From positions 1-64,000 of the forward strand of contig NZ_CADCXN010000058.1 of assembly GCF_902806695.1 (NCBI RefSeq): a DNA stretch of 64,000 nucleotides, given 5' to 3'. The position numbers and the translations under genes were made by a program. Shown here piece by piece: positions 2,295 to 37,213 of the stretch. How positions within the stretch are numbered: the first letter of the stretch is position 1; every line of letters starts with the position of its first letter. Under the pieces are notes generated by a model that was not told the origin of the DNA, searched no databases, and saw only the letters and a list, made by a program, of their open reading frames with translations. This DNA comes from Candidatus Methylobacter favarea (GTDB lineage Bacteria; Pseudomonadota; Gammaproteobacteria; Methylococcales; Methylomonadaceae).

Positions 2295-3743
2295 ATGCGG
2301 GAGGGAATTTTGAGCTTGCATCCTCTTGTGGTTGACCTGGATGGAACGCTGATCCACACAGACATGCTGCATGAATCCGCATTGAGAGCCCTGCGCGATA
2401 ACCCGTTTGACACCTTGCGCATTCCCTTTTGGTTATTGAAAGGCAAGGCATCGCTCAAGAAGAATCTGGCCGACCGCACTGATTTTGACGCGACTTCCCT
2501 GCCCTATAATCAGGATTTGTTAGACTGGTTAAAGCAGCAGCGGGCTCACGGTCGAAAGTTGATCTTGTGCACCGCTTCTGATCACTCCATCGCCACTGCA
2601 ATTGCGGAGCACCTCGGTATTTTTGACGAAGTAATGGCAAGCGATGGCGCCACAAATCTGGCTGGAAAACACAAGGCCGAAACCCTTGAAGAACGTTTTG
2701 GCCATGCCGGTTTTGATTATGTGGGCAACTCGCGCGCAGATCTGGCGGTGTGGCAATGCGCCAGAAGGGCAGTGGTCGTCAATGGGTCTGCGAATCTGGC
2801 CCGCAAAGCGGGAGGTTACTGTGAGGTGACACACGTGCTCCCTTCGCCTGGCCGTGGCTTTACAACCTGGTGCCGGGTGCTGCGTGTGCACCAGTGGATG
2901 AAGAACTTATTGTTGTTCATCCCCTTATTCGCGGCGCATCAATTCACCAGCCCCGATACCTGGCTGACGCTCTTTCTGGCTTTTATCTCATTCAGCTTAT
3001 GTGCCTCAGCGGTTTATATCGCCAATGACCTGCTGGATCTGGAGAGTGACCGGCAGCATCCGCGCAAATGCAAAAGACCCTTTGCCTCAGGTCTGGTTCC
3101 GGCCTGGATAGGCGTGGCCCTGGCGCCCCTGTTACTGCTTGCCAGTCTGACATTGGCTCAACATGCAGGAGGCGACTTTTTACCATGGCTGCTGTTTTAT
3201 TTTGTCGTGACCTGTGGGTACTCCTGGGGGCTCAAGCGTATAATTCTCGTGGACTGCCTGATTCTGGCGATGCTTTATACCTTGCGCATTGTCGCCGGCG
3301 CCGCCGCTGCGGGCATGGGTCTGTCATTCTGGCTGCTTGCGTTTTCGGTTTTTCTGTTTTTATCGCTGGCCTTCGTCAAACGCTATGCAGAGCTGGAGGT
3401 GCAGTTGTTGAATGGCAAGCAAAAGACGCACGGACGCGGTTATTACTCCTCAGATGCCCCGCTGGTGCAGACGCTGGGCATCGCTTCCGGCTACGCCGCC
3501 GTACTGGTGCTGGCGCTTTATCTTAATAGCGATGCTGTCGTGAAGCTGTATCGAGCCCCGGAATTCGTATGGGGCGCGGTGCCTGTCATGCTGTTCTGGG
3601 TGAGCTGGATGTGGATGCGGGCCCATCGGGGCGAAATGCATGATGATCCCCTGGTCTTTGCCGTAAAAGACAAAGCCAGCCTGCTGGCAGGAATAGTGTT
3701 TGCAGGCGTCTTGGCAATCGGTACGGTCGGTTGGCCATGGTAG
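2295..3743 (+). CDS. HAD phosphatase-UbiA prenyltransferase fusion (DPPR synthase/phosphatase-like)
   Basis: A 482-residue two-domain protein. Residues about 8-185 form a HAD-type phosphatase: nucleophile motif D14-L-D16-G-T, T93 in LCTASD, K125/K127 and a GNSRAD variant (144-149) of the usual GDxxxD. From about 195 to the end is a multi-membrane UbiA domain with N244-D-x-x-D248-x-x-x-D252, followed by a second conserved membrane-loop segment (WGLKRI). UbiA enzymes of this branch, such as mycobacterial Rv3806c, put 5-phosphoribose from PRPP onto polyprenyl phosphate. I infer that the HAD part removes the 5-phosphate, a step done by a separate phosphatase in mycobacteria. The 3' end overlaps dprE1 translationally, and dprE1/dprE2-like genes follow directly, which supports the pathway. 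The substrate is not proven. Confidence 0.85.
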   Translation: MREGILSLHPLVVDLDGTLIHTDMLHESALRALRDNPFDTLRIPFWLLKGKASLKKNLADRTDFDATSLPYNQDLLDWLKQQRAHGRKLILCTASDHSIATAIAEHLGIFDEVMASDGATNLAGKHKAETLEERFGHAGFDYVGNSRADLAVWQCARRAVVVNGSANLARKAGGYCEVTHVLPSPGRGFTTWCRVLRVHQWMKNLLLFIPLFAAHQFTSPDTWLTLFLAFISFSLCASAVYIANDLLDLESDRQHPRKCKRPFASGLVPAWIGVALAPLLLLASLTLAQHAGGDFLPWLLFYFVVTCGYSWGLKRIILVDCLILAMLYTLRIVAGAAAAGMGLSFWLLAFSVFLFLSLAFVKRYAELEVQLLNGKQKTHGRGYYSSDAPLVQTLGIASGYAAVLVLALYLNSDAVVKLYRAPEFVWGAVPVMLFWVSWMWMRAHRGEMHDDPLVFAVKDKASLLAGIVFAGVLAIGTVGWPW

Positions 3744-5035
3744 CGGTTTCGTCGTGGGGACGATTGAGCAAGCGGCAGCACGAGGTTGTGGCTCTATCTG
3801 ATCGCGATCATGTAATTCAGCAACTGAAAAGCAGCCGGTCAGGTATTGCTCACGGCATGGGGCGCAGCTATGGCGACGTCTGCCTGAATCCGGATGGCGT
3901 TTTGTGGAATACCACTGGATTAGATCGCTTTATCAGCTTTGATGAGAGCACGGGCCTGCTTGCGTGTGAAGCAGGCGTGCTGTTGCGTGACATTCAACGA
4001 TTAGTCATGCCGCAAGGCTGGACTCTTCCGGTTACTCCGGGAACGCAACTAGTAACAGTGGGCGGCGCCATCGCCAACGATGTGCACGGCAAGAATCATC
4101 ATGTTTTAGGTAGCTTTGGCGATCACGTTCAACGGATCAAGCTGATCCGTACCAACGGTGCAGCCACTGAATGCGGACCTGATCTTCTGCCCGACTGGTT
4201 TTCCGCTACCGTAGGCGGTCTCGGTCTGACCGGCGTCATCACTGAAGCCGAAATTCAACTGCGCCGGGTGCCGGGCCCCTGGCTGGCTACCGAAACCGTG
4301 CCGTATGGGAATCTGGACGAGTTTTTCCGTCTGGCTGACGATTCAGAAGCTGACTGGGAACATACTGTTTCCTGGGTAGACTGCATTTCTGGAGAAGTTG
4401 GACGCGGGATCTTCATGCGCGGCAATCCCGCCCATGTAGATCATCGCCCGGAGCCAAAAAACCGCAAGCTGACTATGCCTTTGGTGCCGCCGATATCCCT
4501 GGTTAATAGGCTTTCCCTGCGGCCTTTCAACATGGCCTATTTCAATCTGAAAAAAAGGCAAGCGGGCAGCGGCATCGCTCATTACGAATCCTTCTTTTAC
4601 CCGCTCGACAACCTCTTGGAATGGAATCGAATGTATGGCCCCAAGGGCTTCTTTCAGTACCAGAGTGTTGTCCCTCGTGAGGTTGGACGCGAAGCGGTGC
4701 GGGCTATGCTGGGCGAAATCGCCCGTTCCGGCGAGGGGTCATTCCTGGCCGTGCTGAAAACCTTCGGTAATCGTCAGGCTGTGGGCATGATGAGCTTTCC
4801 GCAGCTTGGCGTGACTCTGGCCCTGGACTTTCCAAACCAGGGTGAGCGAACGCTGAAGCTTTTCGAGCGGCTGGACGCCATCGTCCGTGAGGCCCGGGGG
4901 CGGATATACCCGGCCAAGGACGCGCGTATGCCGCGCGACCTTTTTGAGTCAGGCTATCCTCGCCTAAAAGAATTTATTCAATACCGTGACCCGGGCATTA
5001 GCTCAGCCTTCTCAAGGCGCTTGATGGAAAACTAA
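3737..5035 (+). CDS. dprE1: DprE1-like FAD-dependent polyprenyl-phospho-ribose 2'-oxidase
   Basis: 432 residues of the VAO/GMC-like FAD oxidase fold. The FAD-binding motif GMGRSYGD is at residues 40-47. The G-G-A-I-A-N-D-V-H-G-K-N-H-H segment (about 109-122) and a later Q-Y-Q motif and Y-P-A-K-D motif match recalled active-site stretches of mycobacterial DprE1. The Tb Cys387 position, target of benzothiazinones, is alanine here (about residue 362, in LALDF). DprE1 oxidises C2' of the ribosyl lipid to a keto intermediate. I chose ATG 3737 rather than TTG 3731; it overlaps the upstream gene by 7 bases. The next gene is the partner reductase, 2 bases away, so the three are probably one transcript. 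Confidence 0.88.
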   Translation: MVAVSSWGRLSKRQHEVVALSDRDHVIQQLKSSRSGIAHGMGRSYGDVCLNPDGVLWNTTGLDRFISFDESTGLLACEAGVLLRDIQRLVMPQGWTLPVTPGTQLVTVGGAIANDVHGKNHHVLGSFGDHVQRIKLIRTNGAATECGPDLLPDWFSATVGGLGLTGVITEAEIQLRRVPGPWLATETVPYGNLDEFFRLADDSEADWEHTVSWVDCISGEVGRGIFMRGNPAHVDHRPEPKNRKLTMPLVPPISLVNRLSLRPFNMAYFNLKKRQAGSGIAHYESFFYPLDNLLEWNRMYGPKGFFQYQSVVPREVGREAVRAMLGEIARSGEGSFLAVLKTFGNRQAVGMMSFPQLGVTLALDFPNQGERTLKLFERLDAIVREARGRIYPAKDARMPRDLFESGYPRLKEFIQYRDPGISSAFSRRLMEN

Positions 5036-5037
5036 AC

Positions 5038-5793
5038 ATGACAGACAATAAAAAAAAAATCGTCATCGCGGGCGCAACCTCGGCCATTGCTGAGCACTGC
5101 GCGCGTTTATGGGTGAGTGAAGCAGCAGTAGATCTGACGCTAATCGGTCGAAATTCAGACAGAACAGAGCGAGTGGCAGCCGATCTGCGCGTACGCAGTC
5201 CGCAATCCGTTTTTCGTATACTTGAAGCAGACTTCATTGATCCGCTCGCCATTCGCCAACTGGTTGATGGCATTGTTGCCGAAGGGTCCGTAGACATCGT
5301 ACTAATCGCCCATGGTTCATTGCCTGATCAGGCTGTTTGCCAGCAGGACTTGACTGCATGCCATGAGGCGCTGACCGTGAATGGAATCTCTCCCGTACTA
5401 TTTGCCGAAGCATTTGCCGGACATATGCAAAAAGCCAATCGTGGAACCTTGGCGATGATCGGCTCGGTGGCGGGTGACAGAGGGCGCAAGTCAAATTATG
5501 TCTATGGCGCAGCCAAGGGCTTGGTTACACGCTACGCGCAGGGGCTGCAGCACCGTCTGGCAAATACCGGCGTTAAGGTAGTTCTCATCAAGCCTGGGCC
5601 GACAGATACGCCAATGACCGCGCATTTAAAACAGCAAGGCGCCCGTCTTGCCAGTGTAGAGAATGTTGCTCAGTTAATTGTTAAAGGAATCACTCAAGGC
5701 AAACCGGTTGTGTATGTACCGGCTAAATGGGCATTGATCATGATGGTAATTCGTCACCTGCCCCGCTTTGTTTTCAATAAACTGGAAATCTGA
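5038..5793 (+). CDS. dprE2: DprE2-like short-chain reductase (keto-ribosyl to arabinosyl lipid)
   Basis: 251 residues of a classical Rossmann SDR. The cofactor motif is GATSAIA (12-18), N115 fits the structural Asn, S143 is in IGSVAG, and Y156-x-x-x-K160 is the catalytic pair. The C-terminus (MMVIRHLPR then FNKLEI) closely resembles the end of mycobacterial Rv3791, which is unusual for generic SDRs and supports the specific call. It would reduce the DprE1 product to polyprenyl-phospho-D-arabinofuranose using NADH or NADPH. The last residues are basic and hydrophobic, fitting membrane association. It is followed at once by a GT-C-like membrane protein. Confidence 0.87.
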   Translation: MTDNKKKIVIAGATSAIAEHCARLWVSEAAVDLTLIGRNSDRTERVAADLRVRSPQSVFRILEADFIDPLAIRQLVDGIVAEGSVDIVLIAHGSLPDQAVCQQDLTACHEALTVNGISPVLFAEAFAGHMQKANRGTLAMIGSVAGDRGRKSNYVYGAAKGLVTRYAQGLQHRLANTGVKVVLIKPGPTDTPMTAHLKQQGARLASVENVAQLIVKGITQGKPVVYVPAKWALIMMVIRHLPRFVFNKLEI

Positions 5794-5794
5794 G

Positions 5795-7945
5795 ATGCCT
5801 GCGCCTGACGCAATAATGAATAAATTCAGCTCAGGAAAATTAGACTCAACAGTTAACGCCATTTTATGGCTGGTGTTACTGCTTACAATCATTGCTGTAT
5901 TTGTGCCATTTTCTCCTCTAATGTCGGCGGCCGGTTTTGATCCGTCGTGGGTATTGGGAATGAATCAGGCAACGGCTCAGCGGCTTTCCTTTGGCAAGGA
6001 AATCATCTATACCTTTGGCCCCTATGCGTCTATTTTCACGAAGTCATACCACCCCTCCACTGATTTTATGATGGTTAGCGGAACTTTGTATTTGGCTTTG
6101 TCCTACTGGGCCTGTATTGTTCTGTTGATGAAAAAGGTTCAATGGCGCTGGGTACTGGCTTTTTGCGCCGTCTTAGTATTGATGGACTCAAGAGACCAGA
6201 GAGACTCTTTGCTATTTTCATATCCCCTTCTTGTTGCATTAGCCAGCTTCAAGATGATGCATCCAGAAGATACTATGGCGGCCGTAAGGAAATATTCTCC
6301 ACTTGTGGCGGCATTACTGTTTGCACCATTCGGTTTGCTTACCCTGGTCAAAGGATCAGTCCTTACTTTGTGCGCTGCTATCGCTGTACTATGTTCTGTA
6401 TTTTTTATCCTCAGCAAAAGAAAATTTCTTGCATTAATTTGCCTCGCATCCCCTGTGATGTCCATGCTTCTATTGTGGATAGCCTCTGGGCAGTCTGCAG
6501 CAACCCTGCCAGATTATTTTATTAATATGAAGCCCATAATCTCGGGCTACACCGAAGCTATGGGCACTGAAGGCTTCATTCATGAAGTGTTTCTGTACCT
6601 GGTCATAACTTCTCTGCTTTTGTTAGCGGTATTTAATGAGAGAAAAATAAACAGCATTTCAAGACTGTTTTTACTCTGCGCTTTTTCTGTTTTTTTATTT
6701 ATTGCTTTTAAGGCGGGATATGTACGCCACGGGGATCATGGATTAATTGCGTCTAATGCATTACTTTTTGGTTCGTTATTTCTACTTTTTTTTGCAGAAA
6801 GCGAGGACTGGAACACTAAAAAGACCTTTTCCATTGCGGTAATCAGCGTCTTTTTTTACCTGCTTACAAATTTAACATATAGCATCCCAGGTGTATTTTT
6901 CCAGGATAAATTAATTGAGAAAAAATTAGATATTAATACTCCAGGATCGCTCAGCAGATACAGCCAAGCTCTCCAGATTTATAATGTCATTGGACTGGAA
7001 AGTTTTATTCAGCTTTTAATTGCTTCTCAAAACATTCACCTTCCTTATTCCCCAGCATGGCACGGCATTAAAAACAGACTGGAAAACAAAAACTGGCCAA
7101 GGCTTGATTACGATGCCGCAGTAACCTCCCTTCGGGAGCAGGCATCCTTTCCTGTTTTGCCAGGCACTACCGATATCTACTCCTTCAACCAAGCCTATTT
7201 GATTGCTTCGGGAAACACGTGGTCGCCTCGCCCCATATTTCAGAGTTTAGGCGCTTATACACCCGCATTGGCTGAGATAAATAGACAGCATCTCTTGGGG
7301 AACCGGGCACCAGATAATATTATTTTTAGAGTGGAACCGATTGATGGAAGACTTCCTTCAATTGAAGACGGGGCAAGCTGGCCAATACTGGTGATTAATT
7401 ATCAGCCATCCTTCATGGAAAATAATTTTTTATTCCTCCGAAAAAAAGAAAGCATCGACGAAATTGAAGAACCATTGAATCTCACAAGTGAAAAACATGT
7501 TTTTGGAGAAAGTGTTAATTTACCGCACTCAAGCCAACCCATATTTGCTCAGATCGAGATTAAATCAACTATTCTGGGGCGTTTAGCTAGTATTTTTTTC
7601 AAGCCAAGTCAACTGCAAATAGAAATTGAACTGAAAAATGGTCTGATAAAACAGTACCGGATCATTGCCGGTATGGCGAAATCGGGTTTTTTAATATCGC
7701 CGCTCATCGAAAATACCGCCGAGTTTCTCAAGTTATATGGCGAAAAAGGATTTCTGGCTGGCAAGCTGGTTAAGGCGATAGCAATTGTGCCGCGTGATGG
7801 CAGAACCAGCCTTTGGAACGATGAATATACTGTTACATTCAATCAAATCAAACGTCCTGCTCCAATCGATATCTCTAAAATCTATAAACTTGATGGATTT
7901 GATGACGAGTTGCCTGCTTCCAGGATAACAATGGCAGAAAAATGA
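5795..7945 (+). CDS. Large multi-membrane protein, GT-C glycosyltransferase-like
   Basis: 716 residues from ATG 5795. The longer start at 5768 would lie inside the upstream gene. About ten hydrophobic segments fill the first 400 residues, followed by a mainly soluble C-terminal third. The first predicted periplasmic loop carries DPSW (about residue 49) and a FGPYAS segment. An acidic residue in that loop is the usual catalytic base or metal site of GT-C enzymes using lipid-phosphate sugars. I therefore infer a glycosyltransferase using the polyprenyl-phospho-arabinose made by the three upstream genes. No sequence family is recognised with certainty. The TGA stop is followed in the same frame by a remnant of a domain also found in the next gene. 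Confidence 0.6.
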   Translation: MPAPDAIMNKFSSGKLDSTVNAILWLVLLLTIIAVFVPFSPLMSAAGFDPSWVLGMNQATAQRLSFGKEIIYTFGPYASIFTKSYHPSTDFMMVSGTLYLALSYWACIVLLMKKVQWRWVLAFCAVLVLMDSRDQRDSLLFSYPLLVALASFKMMHPEDTMAAVRKYSPLVAALLFAPFGLLTLVKGSVLTLCAAIAVLCSVFFILSKRKFLALICLASPVMSMLLLWIASGQSAATLPDYFINMKPIISGYTEAMGTEGFIHEVFLYLVITSLLLLAVFNERKINSISRLFLLCAFSVFLFIAFKAGYVRHGDHGLIASNALLFGSLFLLFFAESEDWNTKKTFSIAVISVFFYLLTNLTYSIPGVFFQDKLIEKKLDINTPGSLSRYSQALQIYNVIGLESFIQLLIASQNIHLPYSPAWHGIKNRLENKNWPRLDYDAAVTSLREQASFPVLPGTTDIYSFNQAYLIASGNTWSPRPIFQSLGAYTPALAEINRQHLLGNRAPDNIIFRVEPIDGRLPSIEDGASWPILVINYQPSFMENNFLFLRKKESIDEIEEPLNLTSEKHVFGESVNLPHSSQPIFAQIEIKSTILGRLASIFFKPSQLQIEIELKNGLIKQYRIIAGMAKSGFLISPLIENTAEFLKLYGEKGFLAGKLVKAIAIVPRDGRTSLWNDEYTVTFNQIKRPAPIDISKIYKLDGFDDELPASRITMAEK

Positions 7946-8104
7946 GACGGCTCTATTGATGCAGTTAACAATATGTCGGCCGTCCCTAAGCAATTTTCAG
8001 TATCAAATTTGTTAGAAGTTAATGACTGGCTCGCTGCTTCTGTGGATAAGGCAACTCTGCCCGAGGCTGTCTATAAGGCAAATATACTCTCGGTCTTGCT
8101 ATAA
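7946..8104 (+). pseudogene. In-frame remnant of the C-terminal domain shared by the GT-C-like proteins
   Basis: Directly after the TGA at 7943-7945 the same frame stays open to TAA at 8102-8104. It reads DGSIDAVN, then SNLLEVNDWLAAS, then LPEAVY. The next gene has the same pattern near its C-terminus: EGSIDVAG, then NYLNIAGWTTIS, then LSEKVYVTL. This region is therefore either the severed end of the upstream protein (nonsense mutation) or a leftover of a deleted neighbour. The rest of the gap to 8263 shows no gene. Confidence 0.5.
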
Positions 8105-8263
8105 AAATGTCCGGCGAGCTACAAATTTGCCCGCAATTTAAAATTCCGGTAACTATTACAAGATAAATTGGAAAACAAAACATTAATATTGTCCCGGCAT
8201 CTGGAAAAAGTAGTTTTAAGTGCTACACGAATCGTTCCGTAAATATAAACTTAGGATATTCAT

Positions 8264-10264
8264 ATGAAGCCACATGAATTTTTCTTATCGATGAATACAA
8301 TATATAAATTAAAAAACATCTCTGCGAGCGAGATATTGATAGTTTTGCTTGCCATATTTTGTTTTTCATACTCGCTATACGTCGCCATCAACTATGCGAC
8401 CCAGATTCCTCTCGACTTACATTCTTTTAGACAAACGCAGACAGCGCTGACTGCGTATTGGCTTGTAAAAAACGGTTTTAGTTTTGCATATGAAACCCCG
8501 GTAGCAGGCCCGCCCTGGAGCATCCCCTTTGAGTTCCCCCTCTATCAGTACATAGTTGCGTTGGCATCCCAGATAACGAAGTATTCATTAAACGCCACAG
8601 GGCGTGTTGTAAGCTTTTTATTTTTAGCTCTCTGCCTTATTCCAGCCCGATCCATTACAAAAAATCTGAATCTTTCTCAATGGGTTTTTTATATTTTTGC
8701 AGCACTGCTCTTTTCCAGTCCCTTATATCTTTATTGGGGACGTACTTTTATGATCGAAACAGCGGCAGTCTTTTTCTCCATAGCCGCCATAAAATATTTT
8801 ATTGATATAGTTCAAGCAAAAAATACATTAAAGAATTCCTTTCTCTTTTTGGGCTTTATTTCGTTGAGCATTCTGCAGAAAGCAACAACCGGCTTGCCTG
8901 TATTGGCTTTACTGAGTTTTGCTTATGTACTCTTAAACATTAAAGACGCCGAATCCTTAAAGGCTTTTTTACTGTCAAAAAAAATCATGTTGGCATTGGT
9001 TTATTTTGGCATCCCGCTGCTTATTGGAATTGCTTGGACCTTATATACCGACCAGATCAAGTCACTGAATGATCTTGGTATAGAATTGACTTCCAGCGCG
9101 CTCACCACGTGGAATTGGGGCAGCATGAGCCAAAGGCTGTCAACTAGCCTTTACAGCGAAGTTATCGGGAAAAGATTATTTGAGCGGAATTTATCCGGAG
9201 CGCTGGGCATAGCGATTCTGATGATTGCACTGTTTTCACATGCCAAAAAATCAGTAAAATCAATAATTGCAATTTCAATTCTAATGGGGTTACTTCCTTT
9301 ATTTCTATTCACTAATCTTCATATTGTCCATACCTACTATCAAACAGGAAATTTAATATTTATCATATATGCGGTCTCAGTAGCTATAGGCCACATATTA
9401 ATGAGTTATTTTGAAAAGAAAATCATCTTATTTATACTAGCCGCAATCATGGTAGCGTCCAATTATTTCTGGTTTTCCAAGGACTATCTGGCCATTATTA
9501 AAACAGAATTTAATAAAGCGAATTCGCGCGATTATGCCGTTTCGGAAATATTAAAGAGAGAAATACCTGAAGAAAAATATTTTGTTGCTTTCGGCAATAG
9601 GTGGAGCTCGTCATTTGCTTACCTTGCAGAACGAAAATCTTTTACCGTACCGGAATCCTTTAAGCAATATGAAAAGATATCCCTTAATCCAGAATACTTC
9701 ATCAAAGAAACACAACTGGGCGGCATTGTTGTATGTCTTACGGGTGTGGCCCCAAATCTTCTTGATACCCTCATACAAAATCTTGATAGCCTCATACAGT
9801 GGTCGTCAAACAATAGGCATTGGAAAATCGGACAGACTCATGGTTGTTTTCTGGCGTTTCCTGAAGCAGTAGCATTAAATCCATCTTTAAAGCTTTCATC
9901 TACAAAATGTGAAGGCAGTATTGATGTTGCCGGTGAGTCACAGGCTGGCAAACGTAACTATTTAAATATTGCCGGTTGGACGACCATATCAGGAAAGCAA
10001 GGAATTCTCTCCGAAAAAGTTTACGTCACATTAACAAAAAATAGCGAACCTGTTTTTTTTGAGACAGTGCAAGTAAATCGTCCTGATGTCAATACCCATT
10101 TCGGCCGACCCAATTTAGATTACAGCGGATTTTCAAGAATAATAAATACGAATTCTCTTGCTGGTGAATATGTTGTAGGTGTCGCCAGATTAAACCAAGG
10201 TTTTCTGGAGCAATGCCAGTTTCAAAAGAAAGTTTCATTAAACAATAAAGGCTTCAATGAATAA
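8264..10264 (+). CDS. GT-C-like integral membrane glycosyltransferase with C-terminal beta domain
   Basis: 666 residues. About eleven membrane spans lie within residues 20-420. The first periplasmic loop has D51-L-H53-S-F-R56-Q57-T-Q59-T-A, a pattern seen in GT39/GT83-type and related GT-C transferases in which the Asp is catalytic. After residue about 420 there is a soluble part. It ends in a domain (about 540-660) with EGSID, GW, VYV and a RPDV-FGRPNLDYSGF segment. A TAGGAT ribosome site lies just before ATG 8264. It likely attaches a lipid-linked sugar, plausibly arabinofuranose, in the periplasm. The acceptor is unknown. It overlaps the next gene by 8 bases. Confidence 0.65.
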   Translation: MKPHEFFLSMNTIYKLKNISASEILIVLLAIFCFSYSLYVAINYATQIPLDLHSFRQTQTALTAYWLVKNGFSFAYETPVAGPPWSIPFEFPLYQYIVALASQITKYSLNATGRVVSFLFLALCLIPARSITKNLNLSQWVFYIFAALLFSSPLYLYWGRTFMIETAAVFFSIAAIKYFIDIVQAKNTLKNSFLFLGFISLSILQKATTGLPVLALLSFAYVLLNIKDAESLKAFLLSKKIMLALVYFGIPLLIGIAWTLYTDQIKSLNDLGIELTSSALTTWNWGSMSQRLSTSLYSEVIGKRLFERNLSGALGIAILMIALFSHAKKSVKSIIAISILMGLLPLFLFTNLHIVHTYYQTGNLIFIIYAVSVAIGHILMSYFEKKIILFILAAIMVASNYFWFSKDYLAIIKTEFNKANSRDYAVSEILKREIPEEKYFVAFGNRWSSSFAYLAERKSFTVPESFKQYEKISLNPEYFIKETQLGGIVVCLTGVAPNLLDTLIQNLDSLIQWSSNNRHWKIGQTHGCFLAFPEAVALNPSLKLSSTKCEGSIDVAGESQAGKRNYLNIAGWTTISGKQGILSEKVYVTLTKNSEPVFFETVQVNRPDVNTHFGRPNLDYSGFSRIINTNSLAGEYVVGVARLNQGFLEQCQFQKKVSLNNKGFNE

Positions 10265-11195
10265 GAAAAGAATCATCCTCCCCGGCGGCGCCGGCCTTGT
10301 TGGACAAAATCTTGTGGCCCGTTTAAAGGCCAAAGGCTATAAAAATATAGTTGTTCTCGACAAGCATCGAACCAATCTGGCCGTCCTGAAACAGGTTCAG
10401 CCGGATATCACGGTTGAGTATGCCGACTTGGCCGAGCCCGGTGACTGGCAGCGGCATTTTATTGATGCTGAAGTTGTAGTGATGTTGCAGGCTCAAATCG
10501 GCGGCAATGATTATCAGGAATTTGTCCGCAACAATCTGGATTCTACTCGTTTAATTCTTGATGCCGTCAAAATCAACAAGGCGCCCTACTTGGTTCATAT
10601 CAGTTCTTCGGTAGTGGAATCGGTCGCCGATGATTTCTACACCAATACCAAGAAGGAGCAGGAGCGCAGGGTGCTGGAAAGCGGCATTTCTTGCCCGATA
10701 TTGCGCCCGACCTTGATGTTCGGCTGGTTTGATCGCAAGCATCTGGGCTGGCTTTCCCGTTTCATGAAGAAGGCGCCGGTCTTCCCGATACCGGGGCACG
10801 GCCGCTATATGCGCCAGCCGCTTTATGTTGGAGACTTTTGCAACATCATCATCAGCTGCATTGAAAATAGAATTGCCGGCGGCATTTACAATATTTCCGG
10901 CCATGAGAAGGTTGATTACATCGATATTATTCGCGAGATAAAGCATGCGACTGGTGCAAGGGCTCTGATTGCCAAGATTCCCTATAGCCTGTTTTATACG
11001 TTGCTTTGGATTTGGGGGCTTTTTGACAAAAATCCGCCGTTCACTACCCAACAACTTGCCGCGCTCGGCGCCAAAGATGAATTTGAAGTAATCGACTGGC
11101 CCGGTATTTTTGGCGTGCCTTATACGCCTTTCGCCAAAGCCATCGATGAAACTTTTAACGATCCGACTTACGGCAAAGTGGTCCTGGAGTTTTGA
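10257..11195 (+). CDS. NAD-dependent epimerase/dehydratase family protein (extended SDR)
   Basis: 312 residues. The N-terminal nucleotide motif is G10-G-A-G-L-V-G. SSS at 116-118 and Y128-T-N-T-K132 give the catalytic Ser-Tyr-x3-Lys set of extended SDRs. Members act on nucleotide sugars or on steroid-like and lipid-linked substrates; the exact reaction cannot be read here. It overlaps the upstream GT-C gene by 8 bases, and the downstream FAD gene begins about 2 bases after its stop, so it belongs to the same transcript. A pairing of such an SDR with an FAD oxidoreductase and GtrA is a recurrent layout in glycan clusters. Confidence 0.8.
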
Positions 11196-11197
11196 AT

Positions 11198-12484
11198 ATG
11201 AAGCAGCGTATTGCCGTACTTGGCGCAGGGCCCATGGGCCTGGCTGTAGCGTACCAATTGGCCCGCGATGGCCATCAGCCGATTGTCTTTGAAGCCGATG
11301 ACAGGGTGGGAGGAATGACCGCTGCGTTTGATTTTTCCGGCTTGACTATCGAACGCTATTACCATTTTCATTGCATCTCCGACCATGCTTTCCTGGCCGT
11401 ACTGGACGAATTGGCCTTGGCCGGCAAGATGCGCTGGGTAGAAACGAAGATGGGTTACTGGTATCAGGGCCAACTGCAGCCTTGGGGCAATCCCATCGCT
11501 CTCCTCAAGTTCCGGGGGTTAAGTCTTATTGCCAAACTCCGCTATGGTCTTCATGCTTTTATGTCGACCAAACGCAATGACTGGAAGCCGCTGGATTATG
11601 TCGAAGCTGTTGGCTGGATCAAGCGCTGGGTGGGCAAGGAGGCTTACGAGGTCATGTGGCGCCGGTTGTTCGACTACAAGTTTTACGAATACACTGACAA
11701 TCTGTCAGCGGCCTGGATATGGAGCCGGATTCGGCGCATCGGGCGGTCGCGCTACAGTCTGTTCCGCGAGAAACTGGGCTATCTGGAAGGCGGTTCGGAA
11801 ACCCTGCTTCAAGCCATGCGCGCCGATATTGAAGCGCATGGCGGCGAAATTCGCCTCAAATCTCCGGTTAGCAAAGTTGTCATCGATGAAGGCAAAGTAC
11901 AGGGCGTGGAAATGGCAGGACAAGTCGAAATTTTCGACAAGGTGATCAGTACTATTCCCCTGCCCTATGTATCCCGGCTGATGCCCGATTTGCCGGTCGA
12001 CGTTCTGCAGCGTTTTCAGGCTATCAAGAATATCGCGGTGGTCTGTGTGATCGTCAAATTGCGCAAGGCCGTGACCGGGAACTTCTGGTTGAACACCAAT
12101 GACCCGGAGATGGATATTCCCGGCCTCGTGGAGTACACCAATTTGCGGCCGCTCGATCAGCACATCGTCTATGTGCCATTTTACATGCCGGGCGAGCACC
12201 CGAAATTTGCTGAACCGGATCAAGCCTTCCTCGACAAGGTGCGCCGCTACTTGAAGAAGATCAATCCTGATCTATGCGATGAAGATTTCATCGACCTGCG
12301 CGCCAGCCGTTACCGCTATGCGCAGCCGATTTGCGATCCTGGCTATCTGGATAAACTGCCTCCGGTTGCGCTGCCCGTTAAAGGCTTATGGGTGGCTGAT
12401 ACCTCTTATTACTATCCTGAGGATAGAGGAATATCCGAGAGTATTGGCTTTGGTCGAGGATTGGCTAGGGAAGCGGTGGTATGA
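11198..12484 (+). CDS. FAD-dependent oxidoreductase (amine oxidase/protoporphyrinogen oxidase-like)
   Basis: 428 residues from ATG 11198 (a TTG at 11192 is possible). The dinucleotide-binding motif GAGPMG (9-14) is followed by the E-A-D-D-R-V-G-G-M segment typical of phytoene desaturase/amine oxidase flavoproteins. A central [13 protein letters not shown] segment marks the second FAD contact. The C-terminus closes with a [19 protein letters not shown] motif. Relatives occur in polysaccharide clusters beside epimerases, where they may oxidise a sugar or act on a lipid carrier. The function here is not known. The 3' end (GFGRGLA) is duplicated downstream at 12906-12951. It overlaps gtrA by 4 bases (ATGA). 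Confidence 0.78.
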
Positions 12485-12882
12485 TTCGGCAATTTATATC
12501 GCGGCAGTTTCTGTTTTTTTTGCTGACTGGGGGGACTGCCGCAGCAGTCAATTTTGGCTCCAGAATTATGTACAGTCAGTGGCTGAATTTTTCTACTTCC
12601 GTGCTTCTTGCCTTTATCACAGGGATGATTACCGCCTTCGTACTGGCCAAGCTTTTTGTATTCAAGGCGAGCCAACAATCAATACGTCGTTCTGCTGCTT
12701 TTTTTATTCTGGTGAATCTGGTTGCAGTACTGCAAACTTGGATCATCAGCATGGGCTTGGCGTATTATCTCTTGCCATCGCTGGAGGTAAAGTTATTCGT
12801 GCCAGAAATCGCCCATGCGGTCGGTGTAGTTGTACCCGTGTTCACCAGTTACATTGGCCACAAGCGTTGGTCGTTCCGATAA
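12481..12882 (+). CDS. GtrA-family four-helix membrane protein (putative lipid-linked sugar flippase)
   Basis: 133 residues with four hydrophobic segments and the family pattern: [18 protein letters not shown] at the N-terminus, the charge-flanked helix pairs in between, and GHKRWSF at the end. GtrA proteins are thought to help move polyprenyl-phosphate sugars across the inner membrane. In mycobacteria a GtrA-type protein, Rv3789, is encoded next to dprE1-dprE2, so the position here fits flipping or delivery of the arabinosyl lipid. It overlaps the FAD gene (ATGA). A second, damaged copy follows. Confidence 0.85.
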
Positions 12883-12905
12883 GGCCCTGTTAATGAAAAT
12901 CAGGC

Positions 12906-12951
12906 ATGCTCTATGGGCTTTGGTCGAAGGCTAGCGAAGACAGGCGATTTT
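12906..12951 (+). repeat. Diverged duplicate of the 3' end of the FAD oxidoreductase gene
   Basis: The bases GGCTTTGGTCGAAGGCTAGC match GGCTTTGGTCGAGGATTGGC at the end of the FAD gene with few changes. Both sites sit immediately before a GtrA ATG. Translated, GFGRRLAKTGDF mirrors [12 protein letters not shown]. The second GtrA gene therefore arrived or arose together with the tail of a second oxidoreductase copy. Confidence 0.6.
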
Positions 12952-13366
12952 ATGATCAAGTATTTTTTTTACCAGACAGTTTCTGGGATTTCTTGCTGTA
13001 AGAGGTCTGGCTGCGCTTCTACATTGGCTGGCGCGCATGTTCTTGAGCATTTGGATGCCTTTTTCCTGGGCGGTTATTAGTGCCTATATTGTTGGAATGA
13101 CGGTGGCCTTTCTGTTAAACAGCGTCTTTATATTTCCAAAATCAGAAAAAGCAATGCACACACAAGCTCGAGATTTTGTTTTGGTGAATTTATCGTTTTT
13201 CCCATTGATCTGGCTGGTTTCAGTAAAAGTTAATAATTGGCTGAAAACTGTTGGAATGACAAGTCATTCTGAAGGATTGGCACATGCTATTGCTATTTCA
13301 TTGCCTATGCTTGCCACGTTTCTGATATATAAATTTTTTGCTTTCAAGGAGAGGCGTTATGAATAG
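12952..13366 (+). pseudogene. Second GtrA-like gene, frameshifted at a T8 run
   Basis: ATG 12952 starts MIKYFF, but the frame is wrong after the T run at 12963-12970. Removing one T gives RQFLGFLAVRGLAALLHWLAR, which continues without a stop into the open frame ending at 13366. The result is a normal GtrA protein of about 137 residues with a YKFFAFKERR end. As written, only the part from ATG 13037 could be made, lacking the first helix. It may be a true pseudogene, a phase-variable tract or a homopolymer base-call error. The sequence is only distantly similar to the copy at 12481-12882. Confidence 0.7.
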
Positions 13367-14024
13367 CACTGAGTTGTCTGAGCTGTATAAAATACGCTTT
13401 GCCCAGGATCAATTGCCGCGCAAAAAAGCGATCTGGCAAGTGATATGTCGAAGCTTTCTTCAGCGTTTTATAAAAGCATCGGATACCGTTGTAGATGTAG
13501 CATGCGGTTATGGCGAGTTCCTTAACAATATCTCGGCAAATAAAAAAATTGCTGTGGACTTGAATGCTGATGCCTTGAAGTTTTTGGACGCCGATATCGA
13601 ATTTCATCAGTGCAAAGCTACAAGTTTGGGCTCGGTAATCGCAGGGAGAGCGGATGCTGTATTCACCTCTAATTTTTTAGAGCATTTGCCAGATAAGAAA
13701 ACCTTGGACGAATTTCTGGATCAAGTGATGATTGCTCTCAAACCGGGTGGAAAATATCTTGTCCTGGGGCCTAATTTGCGGTATTTGCCCGGTCAATACT
13801 GGGATTTCTATGACCACCATTTGGGGCTGACTCATCTATCATTAAGTGAAGCTTTGCAGCTAAAAGGGTTTAACATACGCCTCTGTATTGATCGCTTTTT
13901 GCCCTTTACCACTCAAGGCGCCCTGCCAACCCACCCCTGGTTGGTTTGGCTTTACCTAAAAATGCCTTTCGCCTGGAGATTTCTGGGCAAGCAGTTTTTT
14001 ATTGTCGCTCAAAAACCCTTCTGA
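13359..14024 (+). CDS. Class I SAM-dependent methyltransferase
   Basis: 221 residues from ATG 13359, which has an AGGAG site about 7 bases upstream; the TTG at 13338 is less likely. Motif I is VVDVACGYGEF (about 41-51), followed by FTSNFLEHLP and the LKPGGKYLVLGP loop of small-molecule methyltransferases. It overlaps the GtrA-like gene by 8 bases and closes the glycan cluster. A role in capping or modifying a sugar is inferred from position only. Confidence 0.82.
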   Translation: MNSTELSELYKIRFAQDQLPRKKAIWQVICRSFLQRFIKASDTVVDVACGYGEFLNNISANKKIAVDLNADALKFLDADIEFHQCKATSLGSVIAGRADAVFTSNFLEHLPDKKTLDEFLDQVMIALKPGGKYLVLGPNLRYLPGQYWDFYDHHLGLTHLSLSEALQLKGFNIRLCIDRFLPFTTQGALPTHPWLVWLYLKMPFAWRFLGKQFFIVAQKPF

Positions 14025-14227
14025 TTGATTGGCGCAATCACGACCTTTTATTTAATCCCGATGCAAGCTCGGATCTTCAATAGAAGCTGCCAATCAGGAC
14101 TACAAAGCGGAAGTAAGCCAGGCATTCGGCTCTTTCCGTTACCTTGCCCTACCTGCTCCATTTAATATAAAGTTAAGAGTGTATTTTGCTATAGTGAAGC
14201 TTATTGATTGGCAGTGAGGTTTGGAAG

Positions 14228-14587
14228 ATGGCATTGGCTCAGGAAGATATCGAACAGATTCAGGACTTGATCAAAAAGGTGATGGCCCAGGCGCCTGAAG
14301 CCGTGAATGCCAATGTGCGCTATGAGCTGGAGGTGCGGGAACGGGTCATTCGCGTGGAAGAAGAGCTCAAGCACCAGCGCGAGTTGATGAGTGAAGGCTT
14401 CCGGCAAATGGAAAAGCGTTTTGAGCAGGTCGACAAGCGCTTTGAACAGGTCGACAAGCGCTTTGAACAGATGCATCAGGAAATCTTGGGTGTGCATCAG
14501 GAAATCAGGCAGTTAATACGCTGGAGCTTCGGTACATTGCTGGCTATCGGCGGTCTGATTGTGGCGGTTCTGCGTTTGGTTGCCTAG
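14228..14587 (+). CDS. Small coiled-coil protein with C-terminal membrane helix
   Basis: 119 residues from ATG 14228 (TTG 14204 also possible). Residues about 30-95 are strongly heptad-like and charged, with three near-identical KRFEQVD units, one of them ending KRFEQMH. The last about 22 residues are hydrophobic. The layout resembles the DUF1640/CCDC90-like and other tail-anchored coiled-coil proteins of bacteria. The function is unknown. The gene stands alone between the methyltransferase and a convergent lipoprotein gene. Confidence 0.6.
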   Translation: MALAQEDIEQIQDLIKKVMAQAPEAVNANVRYELEVRERVIRVEEELKHQRELMSEGFRQMEKRFEQVDKRFEQVDKRFEQMHQEILGVHQEIRQLIRWSFGTLLAIGGLIVAVLRLVA

Positions 14588-18472: not shown

Positions 18473-20215
18473 TTAGCGAACATAAGCTGCCAGGCGCCGC
18501 AAAAGTCCGTCAGGTTCGGCGATAGCCATGGCGGCGATTTTATCGGCGCGACCCTGAGTATCCGCGACTGCATAAATTCTCAGTTCGTCAGCATTGCCTG
18601 AAGGGCGCAAATGCGCCAAGTCGCCGTTACTGAAGTACATCCGCACGCCATCGACATAATTAATGCGTTCTATCTTTCCGAAGCCGAGCTCCGGCGAGAA
18701 AAAAACTTCCAGCTCTTGCCTGATCGTCTCTAAAGCTTTTTTTTGCACGGTATCCGCTGCTATTTCCTTATTATTTTCATTCATGAAAACGATTTTATCA
18801 TCGGACAAAAAAGCTGCCGTCTGAATAGCTTCATCAGACGGGGAAAAGCGTTTCACGATCTCCAGGCCCAGTGTTCTTGGAAACTGCTTGATAAGCGCCG
18901 CCCGGCTATAGCGCTTCGGCAAACGCGTAAAGATTTCAGTCAAGGGCGCACCATCCCGCCGGGCAATAAACAGCACGGCCAAAATGGGCAGAACCGCATC
19001 ACGCGTGGGCAGGGCGGTTAATACTTGGCCATTCAGGAATATATCGGAACCGGTGAGAAAGCCGCCGTTAGCCTCCCAGCCGCAAACCGCTTTTTTACCC
19101 CGAGCCAACGCCTTTTCCATGCCGGCAATCACATAGGGCGAACCGATTCGCGTTTTGGCTTCGATAATATCTTTCAGCTTGCCGCGATCAATGCCGTCAT
19201 TGCTGCTTATCGGCACTACCACGGCATCGGCGCCTAATAGTTCCGCTGTCAGCATGCCTATCAGGTCGCCGCCAAAAAAATGTACGGTAGCCGTTTCAGC
19301 TTCCACGCCGAGTATCAGCGGACGATCGCTGTCGCCGTCCGTGGAAACAACGGCATCAAACTGGCCGTATTGAGCAGCCTCCTCATCGTACAATTTCTGA
19401 ATGACGGCAAGCTGCCCTGCGTCCATGTTTTCGGTATCGATAGGCACGAAGGTTTCGCTGCGCCCGGCAATAACGACTTCTGCTCCCAAGGCGCGGAGAA
19501 TATCAACCAGCATATCGCGCCCGACTGCTGAATGCTGATAGGTTAACAGCCGCATTCCGGCCAGCGCTTGTTTTCCGAAAAAATCGACATAGCGCTGGAT
19601 ATAAGCCGAAGCCGCTTCACGGCGTTCAACAGATAATGCCCTTGAACCGGTTTTAAAAAGCCCGTCTGCCCCGAATAGCGAATCATCGAACGGCTGCTCG
19701 TAAAACCTCTGCCTGACTTCTTTAACTTTTTCGTTGACGGGTCTTTCATGCTGCTTGAGCAATTCGCCCCGCGACGTATTGGTTTTATAACCGTTGCGGT
19801 CAAACGGAATATGACTCCCCGTCACCATCATGCTGCCCTTGCCCTGCGCCAGGGCATAATGGGTAAGCGCGGGGGTCGGAATCATGCCTTCATTTACCGG
19901 TATCATTCCCGCATAGAGAATGGCCTGCTCAATGGCCTGGGCCAGTTCGCCCCGCCCCTGCTGTTCGGCAACATAAGCGCTGGAACTGGGCCGCAAATCA
20001 CGGGCGTAAAAGAATTCCTCACCCCGCGCTATGCCGCCTTCGGCTTTAGACAGCGATTGAAGAAACTCCAGTTCTGCCACTGCATTGATAAAGACTTCCA
20101 GTTGCGTTAAATGAACAACTTCTCCCCTTCGGCCGCTGGTTCCAAATTGTAATTCCCGAGGTTCATAGGCAAGACATTGGCGTAGAGACTTTTGTTGGTT
20201 TGGGCGCATTGGCAT
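18473..20215 (-). CDS. Phosphoglucomutase/phosphomannomutase family protein, divergent
   Basis: 580 residues, longer than typical bacterial PMM/PGM (about 450-550). The phosphoserine loop is V-T-G-S134-H-I-P instead of the common TASHNP. The metal loop is D293-G-D-S-D297-R. GWEANGGF (about 380) and a C-terminal phosphate-binding PSGNADELRIY segment complete the four-domain fold. It should interconvert hexose 1- and 6-phosphates. Next to gmd-fcl, mannose 1-phosphate supply for GDP-mannose is a reasonable guess. Start MPMRPNQ at 20215; an internal Met two residues in is equally possible. Confidence 0.85.
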   Translation of the reverse strand: MPMRPNQQKSLRQCLAYEPRELQFGTSGRRGEVVHLTQLEVFINAVAELEFLQSLSKAEGGIARGEEFFYARDLRPSSSAYVAEQQGRGELAQAIEQAILYAGMIPVNEGMIPTPALTHYALAQGKGSMMVTGSHIPFDRNGYKTNTSRGELLKQHERPVNEKVKEVRQRFYEQPFDDSLFGADGLFKTGSRALSVERREAASAYIQRYVDFFGKQALAGMRLLTYQHSAVGRDMLVDILRALGAEVVIAGRSETFVPIDTENMDAGQLAVIQKLYDEEAAQYGQFDAVVSTDGDSDRPLILGVEAETATVHFFGGDLIGMLTAELLGADAVVVPISSNDGIDRGKLKDIIEAKTRIGSPYVIAGMEKALARGKKAVCGWEANGGFLTGSDIFLNGQVLTALPTRDAVLPILAVLFIARRDGAPLTEIFTRLPKRYSRAALIKQFPRTLGLEIVKRFSPSDEAIQTAAFLSDDKIVFMNENNKEIAADTVQKKALETIRQELEVFFSPELGFGKIERINYVDGVRMYFSNGDLAHLRPSGNADELRIYAVADTQGRADKIAAMAIAEPDGLLRRLAAYVR

Positions 20216-20462
20216 AAGTGTTAACTTTGCTCTGTCAGAGTGGTGAAAAATAATCAGGCATTGCCCGGTTTTTGCTCCATTGCCTGAGCTAATACTTATA
20301 ACTTGAGGGCAGTCTTACAAGGTAAGGCAGGTTGCGGCGGTCCGGCTGGAATATATCAGCAAGGCCTTTCGAGGTAAGGCGCCGCTCTTCAAGTTTGACC
20401 AACGGAAAAGAGGTATACTTTATAAAAATCGCCCCGGAGCGCTATTACTGTATGCTGGAAAG

Positions 20463-21434
20463 TTAAGCTCTAAATTCATTCTGGTGTTCAACAAACCACC
20501 GGTAAGTGCTGGATAGACCTTCCTTTAATGGTATTTGCGGACGCCAGCCAAGCGATTTAAGCTTTGAGACATCCATTAATTTTCTGGGCGTACCATCGGG
20601 CTTGCTGCTATCCCAAATGATTTTGCCTTGATAGCCGACCACGTCCTGTATGGTTTCTGCGAGTTCCGAGATAGTTACATCTTCGCCTGTTCCCACATTC
20701 AGGTGGGAAAGCATCGGTTCGGTGCAGGCTTGATAATGTTCTTTTGATAATCCCATCACATGCAGGCAGGCGGCGGCCATATCATCGACATGCAAAAATT
20801 CGCGCATCGCCTTGCCGCTGCCCCACACAGTAACCGTGGGTGAGTTTTCTGTTTTGGCTTGATGAAATTTCCTTATTAAGGCCGGTATAACATGGCTGTT
20901 TTCCAGATGGAAATTATCATTCCGGCCATACAGGTTGGTTGGCATGACAGAACGGAAATCCGTGCCATATTGGCGGTTGTAGGATTCGCACAGCTTGATG
21001 CCGGCAATTTTTGCAATGGCATACGGTTCGTTGGTTGATTCCAGTGTCCCGGTCAGCAAGGCCTTTTCACTCATGGGCTGTGCTGCCAGTTTTGGATAAA
21101 TGCAGGAGCTGCCCAGAAAAAGCAGTTGATTACAACCGGAAGCCCATGCCTGATGAATCACATTGGCTTCAATCAACAGGTTCTGGTAAATAAACTCTGC
21201 GGGATATTCATTGTTGGCATGAATCCCCCCTACTTTAGCTGCTGCCAGAATCACATAAGCGGGCTTTTCGCTCTGCATAAATTGCCGTACTGCCGCCTGG
21301 TCGGTGAGGTCCAGTTCGGCATGCGTGCGCACTACAATATTTTCAAAGCCGGCATTATTCAGCTGCCGCATTATGGCTGAACCCACCATGCCGCGATGTC
21401 CGGCCAGATAGATTTTAGTCTGTTTTTCCAGCAT
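20463..21434 (-). CDS. fcl: GDP-L-fucose synthase
   Basis: 323 residues from ATG 21434, which lies 4 bases after the gmd stop; the longer frame to 21530 would overlap gmd and has no family support. N-terminal [11 protein letters not shown] (about 9-19), SSCIYP, and Y-A-I-A-K catalytic pair are diagnostic of GDP-4-keto-6-deoxymannose 3,5-epimerase/4-reductase. The MPTNLYG, HVDD and GTGEDVTI segments also fit. It makes GDP-L-fucose from the GMD product with NADPH. It forms an operon with gmd. Confidence 0.95.
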
Positions 21435-21438
21435 ACTA

Positions 21439-27436: not shown

Positions 27437-27560
27437 TAGCTTATTCGGGCAGACAGCGCAAAGACATGAAAAAATTCCTGTGCTGTGAGTGGTTTTGCGC
27501 TTATTGGAATATTAACCATGTCAACGCCATCATCAAATGAATAGCTTTAAGGACTGACTT

Positions 27561-31054: not shown

Positions 31055-31089
31055 CTTAATAAATTGCACCAAGAGCACAAAGTTTTTTC

Positions 31090-31111
31090 GCGCCCTGTGG
31101 GGCGTTCTTTT
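31090..31111 (+). terminator. Rho-independent terminator after the transglutaminase operon
   Basis: CGCCC-TGTG-GGGCG (31091-31104) followed by TTCTTTT. It lies 36 bases after the stop and separates the amidoligase operon from the ParA-like gene. Confidence 0.6.
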
Positions 31112-31139
31112 AAATTTAGTACCTTAAAACTGGAGTTGT

Positions 31140-31835: not shown

Positions 31836-31850
31836 TGATTTTCCTGTTAA

Positions 31851-32012
31851 GCACAAATTTATCTTCACCTTCCTGGGTTGAATAAATCCCCCGGGCCGCA
31901 CCTGCTTGCAACAGCTGGGTTTAATGCTGCTGCTTTAAAGGCTGATCTGACCGTTTTTAACACTCTGGACGGTCGGGTCAATTTACCGGATAATTATAAA
32001 ATTATCCCTTGA
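31851..32012 (+). other. Open 53-codon stretch without start, possible gene fragment
   Basis: Between stops the frame reads IYLHLPGLNKSPG, then HLLATAGFNAAAL and LDGRVNLPDNYKIIP before TGA. Composition looks protein-like but no ATG is present and no family is recognised. It may be a decayed gene end in the 286-base gap before the Anbu gene. Confidence 0.2.
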
Positions 32013-32121
32013 ATAAATTAACCTTAAAAAAGTTTATTGTTTACCGCTATGGTTGTATTTCTGGATCAGAAAGATGAGGTGGGATAAGATATTGTAAATT
32101 TTTGCCTTGCTTTTTTAATTT

Positions 32122-32877: not shown

Positions 32878-32939
32878 GCATACTGCCGTGTCTTCAGGAC
32901 ATGAAAATTTTCAGGTTTGGGCCTCCTGGAACAGAAGCT

Positions 32940-37143: not shown

Positions 37144-37213
37144 ATTCAGGCAAAGTTTAGGTGTTAGGGATTTATTGGCTCTAGTTAAAATACCCTGGCT
37201 AATTAACTTGAGT

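Follow-up and report, generated by a model that had tools for sequence, protein, structure and literature searches.

The window analysed here, 64,000 nucleotides of Candidatus Methylobacter favarea (contig NZ_CADCXN010000058.1, positions 1 to 64,000), carries a same-strand run of mostly overlapping or abutting open reading frames at 2295-14024 (+). In order, these encode a HAD-UbiA fusion, a DprE1-like and a DprE2-like enzyme, two GT-C-type glycosyltransferases (GT-C 1 and GT-C 2), a short-chain dehydrogenase/reductase (SDR), a flavin adenine dinucleotide (FAD) enzyme, GtrA, a second GtrA (GtrA2) and a methyltransferase. We judge it reasonably probable that these genes form a lipid-linked pentose donor cassette with periplasmic glycosyltransferases, in which the SDR and the FAD enzyme act after DprE1 and DprE2. 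The donor that is flipped would then probably be a further-converted pentose rather than plain D-arabinofuranose (D-Araf). The new point is the SDR-FAD pair and its dependence on DprE1/DprE2; within the open-licence literature, we recognised no paper that describes the pair or gives it a role. The genes at 2295-13366, which a sequence-only reading of this DNA had reported as one run, are present there on one strand. The window starts at contig base 1, so the 5' side of the locus is bounded by the contig start. The genes of the run are as follows, "the SDR" hereafter being the one at 10257-11195.

2295-3743 (+): HAD phosphatase-UbiA fusion (NF006088/PRK08238, 693.6 bits against a cut-off of 351)
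3731-5035 (+): DprE1-like FAD oxidase (NF053785, 358.2 bits against a cut-off of 500)
5038-5793 (+): DprE2-like SDR reductase (NF053786, 172.7 bits against a cut-off of 250; PRK07102, 249.6 against 267)
5768-7945 (+): GT-C-type membrane glycosyltransferase 1 (no Pfam or NCBIfam match; GT-C-like predicted fold)
7946-8163 (+): remnant of the GT-C 1 C-terminal domain in two frames (tblastn with the C-terminus of the relative in locus L102)
8264-10264 (+): GT-C-type membrane glycosyltransferase 2, PMT-like (Pfam PF02366, PMT, 25.4 bits against 22.7)
10257-11195 (+): extended SDR of the nicotinamide adenine dinucleotide (NAD)-dependent epimerase type (Pfam Epimerase, 64.2 bits)
11192-12484 (+): FAD enzyme of PRK07233 (NF005560, 576.7 bits, clearing the cut-off of 252)
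12481-12882 (+): GtrA-type membrane protein (Pfam PF04138, 50.6 bits)
12952-13366 (+): second GtrA-type gene, frameshifted (PF04138, 41 bits for 12959-13363)
13359-14024 (+): class I S-adenosylmethionine (SAM) methyltransferase (Pfam Methyltransf_23, 36.4 bits)

As homology, the donor-pathway reading of the first three genes is well supported. The proposed likeness to Rv3806c, DprE1 and DprE2 is borne out by the top Protein Data Bank (PDB) matches, in a one-way search with the window proteins as queries, and by active-site motifs that are kept. The HAD-UbiA protein clears the curated NF006088 cut-off and has both the HAD nucleophile and the UbiA Asp motif (DLDGT, NDLLDLESD and KRYAEL were found), and its UbiA part scores 100 bits against 8j8j, a structure of decaprenyl-phosphate phosphoribosyltransferase. 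It is predicted to be a polyprenyl-phosphate phosphoribosyltransferase and 5'-phosphatase. The top match of the DprE1-like protein is DprE1 (4aut, 258.5 bits), the best non-DprE1 structure standing at 34.5 bits, and its full-length similarity to DprE1 far exceeds that to other FAD_binding_4 oxidases. GRSYGD, HGKNHH, QYQ and the lysines of VLKTFG and AKDAR are common to both proteins, and we take these residues to have their DprE1 roles towards FAD and substrate. The segment GVTLALDFP has Ala at what is presumably the position of the benzothiazinone-binding Cys. By homology, the enzyme would catalyze 2'-oxidation of polyprenyl-P-ribose. For the DprE2-like protein, which keeps YxxxK, the top match is DprE2 (21gq_C, 110.9 bits) and the next SDR reaches 51.7 bits.

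The gene order recurs far beyond this contig. A scan with an SDR alignment returned at least 506 relatives, and the best 80 were kept, drawn from Methylococcales, Pseudomonas, Erwiniaceae, Oxalobacteraceae, Comamonadaceae, Dyella, Legionellaceae, Bordetella and others. The FAD gene accompanies the SDR in 78 of these loci, DprE2 in 72, DprE1 in 69 and HAD-UbiA in 67, and the two loci without the FAD gene end at or near the SDR. Whole-genome searches located DprE1 elsewhere in 10 of the 11 genomes whose locus lacks it; the eleventh (G435) gave no DprE1 match, and its locus, L153, starts inside DprE2 at a contig edge. The SDR has flanks of at least 8 kb on its upstream and 3 kb on its downstream side in 58 loci, of which 56 hold UbiA, DprE1, DprE2 and FAD. 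The order UbiA DprE1 DprE2 SDR FAD GtrA on one strand is found in 53 of these 56 complete loci, which argues that the run is not due to chance. The gap between DprE2 and the SDR is below 200 bp in 17 loci and at least 1 kb in 39, the latter being space for GT-C genes, as in the window. The layout is a widespread cassette, UbiA-DprE1-DprE2-(GT-C)-SDR-FAD-GtrA, and its earlier description as less familiar does not hold.

In no genome or plasmid examined for both was the SDR found without donor genes. In a class sample of 369 genomes (thresholds E <= 1e-40 for DprE1 and for the SDR, E <= 1e-60 for the FAD enzyme), DprE1 is present in 69, the SDR in 13 and the FAD enzyme in 14. Each of the 13 SDR genomes (the window's is one of them) carries the FAD enzyme and DprE1 as well, and in 10 a single contig has all three inside about 10 kb. 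The hypergeometric probability that the 12 other SDR genomes are all drawn from the 68 other genomes with DprE1 comes to 6.8e-10, with independence assumed and relatedness ignored. DprE1 occurs without the SDR in 56 of the 69 genomes, and this asymmetry, in which the SDR needs DprE1 and the reverse is not so, is expected of a later step in one pathway. All seven plasmid records with the SDR also hold DprE1, which is found in 63 records; annotated examples are plasmids of Agrobacterium salinitolerans, Rhodobacteraceae SC52 and Burkholderia stagnalis. The SDR is present in 3 of 61 relatives, all three loci showing the full set, and in 5 of 60 Cupriavidus genomes in a genus search. Phages searched for DprE1 and Escherichia coli genomes searched for Pantoea SDR-FAD DNA gave no match. 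Statements of absence rest on whole-genome searches where available, and open-frame picking errs in GC-rich loci (for example L221).

A link of the pair to UbiA alone is ruled out. NF006088 matches occur in 85 of the 369 class genomes, 45 above the cut-off, and among 14 control genomes in Corynebacterium glutamicum only, below the cut-off. DprE1 is missing from 20 of the 85, and not one of them holds the SDR or the FAD enzyme; neighbourhoods were inspected for 10 of the 20 (11 loci). The idea that the FAD enzyme always accompanies DprE1 was likewise rejected. The fourteenth FAD genome of the class sample, G066, has a copy 30% identical and no DprE1 match. In a phylum sample of 219 genomes, PRK07233 scores above its cut-off in six, five of which carry DprE1 (in G566 on another contig) and one of which, G574, does not.

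The pair has also been joined to divergent DprE donor sets. Of 65 complete loci, 19 have UbiA, DprE1 and DprE2 proteins with just 37-49% identity to those of the window, yet the SDR and FAD enzyme average 78.4% and 80.9% there, against 78.5% and 78.1% in the other 46. The donor-set type requires one change on the DprE1 tree and seven on the SDR tree, two of these forced by starred branches, and SDR presence requires nine changes on the DprE1 tree, seven of them forced. Both trees were built with FastTree alone and carry long-branch warnings. The 107 rows of the DprE1 tree comprise the window, 68 of the 69 DprE1 proteins of loci L100-L179 (one fragment was dropped for length) and 38 others, 21 of which are SDR-negative; class genomes supply loci from the 30 best-scoring of 69, the window's included. 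By the identity contrast and the tree changes, the pair has come together with different donor sets, and where examined it was still never without one.

These distributions bear on the simplest alternative, in which DprE1 and DprE2 finish a plain D-Araf donor and the SDR and FAD enzyme contribute a different, unrelated component to the same surface glycan. The many DprE1 genomes without the SDR speak for it, as do the plain D-Araf glycans known from Pseudomonas paraeruginosa pilins (PMC12369383) and Devosia (PMC8707391). A further point in its favour is a 39% identical GT-C 1 homologue in locus L030, which adjoins DprE1/DprE2 and GtrA without the SDR or FAD gene; an SDR search of that genome (G022) gave no match. 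An unrelated sugar module would be expected to occur sometimes without DprE1/DprE2, and this is seen in none of the 13 class genomes and none of the seven plasmids with the SDR. We therefore regard this alternative as unlikely. The earlier proposal of a D-Araf donor keeps its enzymes, by homology; the pathway probably continues beyond D-Araf, given that the SDR genomes and plasmids examined all carry DprE1 or, once, a contig-edge DprE2.

The motifs of the SDR are complete, with GGAGLVG (GGxxGxxG, for NAD) and YTNTK (YxxxK), a set that fits an active SDR. Its highest-ranking PDB profile belongs to a nucleotide-sugar dehydratase, and an epimerase and NDUFA9-type complex I proteins follow closely. 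The FAD enzyme was modelled with AlphaFold2 (AF2; pLDDT 86). Its nearest PDB fold is phytoene desaturase (Z score 31.2, root-mean-square deviation 3.4, 418 residues aligned), followed by protoporphyrinogen oxidase (Z 29.1) and UDP-galactopyranose (UDP-Galp) mutase (Z 26.8). Assignment as a UDP-galactopyranose mutase was considered and not made, phytoene desaturase and protoporphyrinogen oxidase being nearer: an hhalign comparison with E. coli Glf gave a probability of 87.5 over residues 7-218 only, and UDP-Galp mutase is not among the 60 profile matches listed of 128. The modelled fold does not decide which reaction is catalysed.

A second genomic context suggests where the PRK07233 family belongs. 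The two PRK07233 genes found without DprE1 in the bacterial samples (G066, locus L194; G574, locus L221) adjoin polyprenyl-P-sugar synthases of the PgfS/ArnC (GtrB) type, which score 275 and 277 bits to PgfS, under the cut-off of 500. The family therefore seems tied to lipid-linked sugars. In both loci (L194, 7526-9770; L221, 7356-10741), a flippase-like protein lies near the PRK07233 and synthase genes. No SDR match was obtained in a genome search of G066, and the open frames read near the FAD gene in L221 included no recognisable SDR.

The same findings open a second alternative, that the pair alters the polyprenyl carrier chain by desaturation, saturation or isomerisation and leaves the sugar alone. 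The closest solved relative of the FAD enzyme in both sequence and fold, phytoene desaturase, acts on a long isoprenoid, and PRK07233 genes also adjoin GtrB-type synthases, enzymes that use a polyprenyl phosphate carrier. A carrier modification would not be expected to be confined to DprE1/DprE2 systems, yet the SDR was so confined where examined, and the dehydratase at the head of the SDR's own profile matches, with the epimerase and NDUFA9-type proteins just after it, also argues against a carrier substrate. This makes carrier modification distinctly unlikely.

In the favoured pathway, then, the HAD-UbiA protein would place ribose-5-phosphate from phosphoribosyl pyrophosphate (PRPP) on polyprenyl phosphate and strip the 5'-phosphate. 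The DprE1-like and DprE2-like enzymes, if they act as their homologues do, would invert C2 to give polyprenyl-P-D-arabinofuranose. From the dependence on DprE1/DprE2, the motifs and the lipid-sugar context, we infer that the SDR and FAD enzyme would convert this product further, most simply to an epimer or another ring form. GtrA would move the result across the membrane, and one or both GT-Cs would transfer the sugar to a glycan or protein at the cell surface.

Candidate conversions are a second epimerisation, to D-lyxofuranose, or a ring change with C4 epimerisation, to L-xylose. In one explicit version, the FAD enzyme would be a mutase (furanose to pyranose) and the SDR would invert C4 of D-arabinopyranose, yielding polyprenyl-P-L-xylopyranose from PRPP; a second version would arrive at D-lyxofuranose by C2 and C3 inversion. 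We offer this detailed chemistry tentatively and consider it quite unlikely to be right as written. The Ralstonia solanacearum O-antigen has a substoichiometric terminal beta-L-xylopyranose side chain (PMC10450222), and substoichiometric terminal L-xylose is the pattern expected of periplasmic side-chain addition. According to Kelly et al. (2024, PMC11127046), D-lyxofuranose occurs in no solved carbohydrate structure, and a literature search, over titles and abstract openings of the papers listed, found lyxofuranose in no bacterial glycan.

Several observations weigh against the favoured pathway. The DprE1 and DprE2 scores fall under the NCBI equivalog cut-offs NF053785 and NF053786, for which reason the proteins are named DprE1-like and DprE2-like here. 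The FAD enzyme is nearest in fold and sequence to phytoene desaturase and protoporphyrinogen oxidase, neither of them a sugar enzyme, and its family occurs without DprE1 in G066, in G574 and in 2 of the 14 control genomes, the archaea Haloferax volcanii and Methanosarcina acetivorans. The genes stand apart in 3 of the 13 class genomes: in G343, SDR-FAD lies about 1.3 Mb from DprE1; in G403, SDR-FAD is on a different contig from DprE1; in G092, DprE1, SDR and FAD each lie on a separate contig. The 80 loci counted above are the closest of at least 506 matches, not a random draw. Finally, GtrA2 is frameshifted and GT-C 1 is cut in this genome, which makes the activity of the cassette here uncertain.

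The GT-C 1 gene stops at a TGA where relatives such as that of L102 continue into a C-terminal domain. The remnant downstream is 63% identical to the L102 protein over 73 residues (across the stop) and then 65.5% over 29 residues in the other frame. Several GT-C 1 relatives also stop before this domain, near the same place, which suggests that the domain may be dispensable. The AF2 model of GT-C 1 (5804-7942, pLDDT 80.5) matches ALG3 (Z 10.9), Pmt4 (Z 9.4) and AftA (Z 8.1, 404 aligned), as well as oligosaccharyltransferase (OST) and ArnT. These scores are weak by the standard of the structure-search tool, which counts Z below about 13 as weak for helical proteins, and a Foldseek search by itself found nothing at E <= 0.001. 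Nonetheless, 16 of the 17 top structural matches are GT-C glycosyltransferases or oligosaccharyltransferases, so the modelled protein likely has a GT-C fold, and it is a candidate pentosyltransferase. Genes of its family are present in 18 of the 80 loci. GT-C 2 has nine hydrophobic segments. A C-terminal stretch of about 120 residues, about 30% alike, is common to L102 (about 8700-9078) and window GT-C 2, in GT-Cs that are otherwise dissimilar; it is possibly a carbohydrate-binding domain.

The GtrA encoded at 12481-12882 is a predicted lipid-sugar flippase, and the best GtrA match per locus is of this first type in 66 of the 80 loci and of the GtrA2 type in eight. The frameshift in GtrA2 lies in a T-run near its start, the frame 12959-13363 having no ATG, GTG or TTG before 13037, and the region is uninterrupted in relatives from several loci. 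The paired GtrA of the sequence-only reading is thus seen as two GtrA-type genes, the second of them broken near its start. A methyltransferase match is found in 12 of the 80 loci. In L023 (Methylovulum, 3808-4878), a single 356-residue frame spans GtrA2 and the methyltransferase, which suggests a flippase-methyltransferase fusion. Either lesion, the GT-C 1 stop or the GtrA2 frameshift, may be an assembly error. The lesions, with the two-frame remnant and the T-run, are what favours a third alternative, a cluster decaying in this genome with no modified glycan made, which we consider very unlikely given the full-length frames of UbiA, DprE1, DprE2, GT-C 2, SDR, FAD and GtrA1, the GT-C 1 relatives that likewise end early and the indel errors possible in a draft assembly.

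Upstream of the cassette, a GT2-family glycosyltransferase gene (1020-1991, +; Pfam Glycos_transf_2, 70.7 bits) is a possible member of the same surface-glycan locus; GT2-type matches occur in 11 of the 80 related loci, not in every case adjoining the cassette. Short tandem repeats at 156-340, near the contig start (14 bp, three copies; 24 bp, 3.4 copies), may be a reason for the assembly break there. Downstream, a 21-bp tandem repeat (14414-14470, 2.7 copies) lies within a small open frame (14204-14587) with repeated KRFEQVD. About 4.4 kb past the methyltransferase, 18473-22563 (-) encodes a phosphomannomutase-like protein, GDP-L-fucose synthase and GDP-mannose 4,6-dehydratase. These predicted GDP-fucose supply genes place nucleotide-sugar genes near the cassette and do not indicate its acceptor. 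Farther on, 24041-39612 holds a DUF2126/transglutaminase gene, a transglutaminase gene and two circularly permuted ATP-grasp genes (27561-30131, 38161-39612), with a gene for a GH15/phosphorylase-kinase-like protein between the latter two. A type I restriction HsdR is encoded at 44991-48206 (468.6 bits, above cut-off), and an HsdM-like protein (100.7 bits, below cut-off) at 50348-52420; a tRNA-Met gene (52790-52867) lies about 370 bp beyond the latter.

If polyprenyl-P-arabinose is the substrate of the SDR and FAD enzyme, a further-converted pentose donor would be made by many proteobacteria, given the at least 506 database stretches that encode a relative of the SDR. The known lipid-linked pentose pathway would be extended, with a possible origin for a rare surface sugar, and DprE1/DprE2 would become an entry point to several sugars, beyond arabinan. 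DprE1 is also a drug target, and the DprE1-like enzymes show that it has many non-mycobacterial relatives. The operon is simple enough for rebuilding in E. coli K-12.

Compared with the mycobacterial decaprenyl-phosphoryl-arabinose (DPA) pathway (Rv3806c, Rv3807c, DprE1, DprE2, Rv3789, Emb/Aft), the cassette shares UbiA, DprE1-like, DprE2-like, GtrA-type and GT-C components, and AftA is among the structures matched by the GT-C 1 model. It differs in having the HAD phosphatase fused to UbiA, in place of a separate Rv3807c, and in the extra SDR and FAD enzyme. No PAP2 (Rv3807c-type phosphatase) match was obtained in the Pfam scan of the cluster, and no arabinan polymerase was recognised there. 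The phosphatase of the proposed mycobacterial parallel is accordingly present as a fused HAD domain, as in Kelly et al. (PMC11127046), and not as the mycobacterial type. The PRK07233 enzymes of L194 and L221 resemble the window's FAD enzyme in scoring above the curated cut-off and in lying beside polyprenyl-P-sugar synthesis, and differ in that their genomes show no DprE1 match.

A Gram-negative precedent for the donor pathway, claimed by the sequence-only reading, is indeed published (PMC11127046, PMC12369383). PSPA7_6245-6251 of P. paraeruginosa, with TfpW, place alpha-1,5-linked D-Araf on type IV pilins, and homologous systems are reported in P. syringae pathovars (PMC12369383); as Gram-negative D-Araf donor genes, they parallel the predicted donor genes of the window. 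A D-Araf polysaccharide is described from Devosia submarina (PMC8707391).

The closest comparison in mechanism is with the three-component pentofuranose systems of Citrobacter youngae O1 and O2 (PMC11127046). There, a HAD-UbiA fusion makes polyprenyl-phosphate-linked ribofuranose and a GT-C transfers ribofuranose, while in O2 the SDR epimerase ORF13 sets the sugar (ORF13-type: C3 epimerase, xylofuranose). The window differs in having GtrA where those systems have a MATE flippase, no MATE-family Pfam match being found among the cluster genes scanned (the search was limited to the cluster), and in having DprE1/DprE2 plus the extra SDR-FAD pair. With regard to GT136, the GT-C family of those systems, GT-C 1 falls in no curated family and GT-C 2 has its PMT match. 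Kelly et al. assign DprE1/DprE2 homologues to Araf-containing glycans; they also note systems with several candidate epimerases or GT-Cs in Xanthomonas and Bacillus, leaving their significance for investigation (PMC11127046). Likenesses to the C. youngae systems are the HAD-UbiA fusion in the double role of synthase and phosphatase, accessory epimerases acting on the pentose (predicted in the window) and, in the prototype, a GT-C with an extracytoplasmic domain. By this analogy, the window cassette would work like the three-component pentofuranose prototype, though we do not file it as one.

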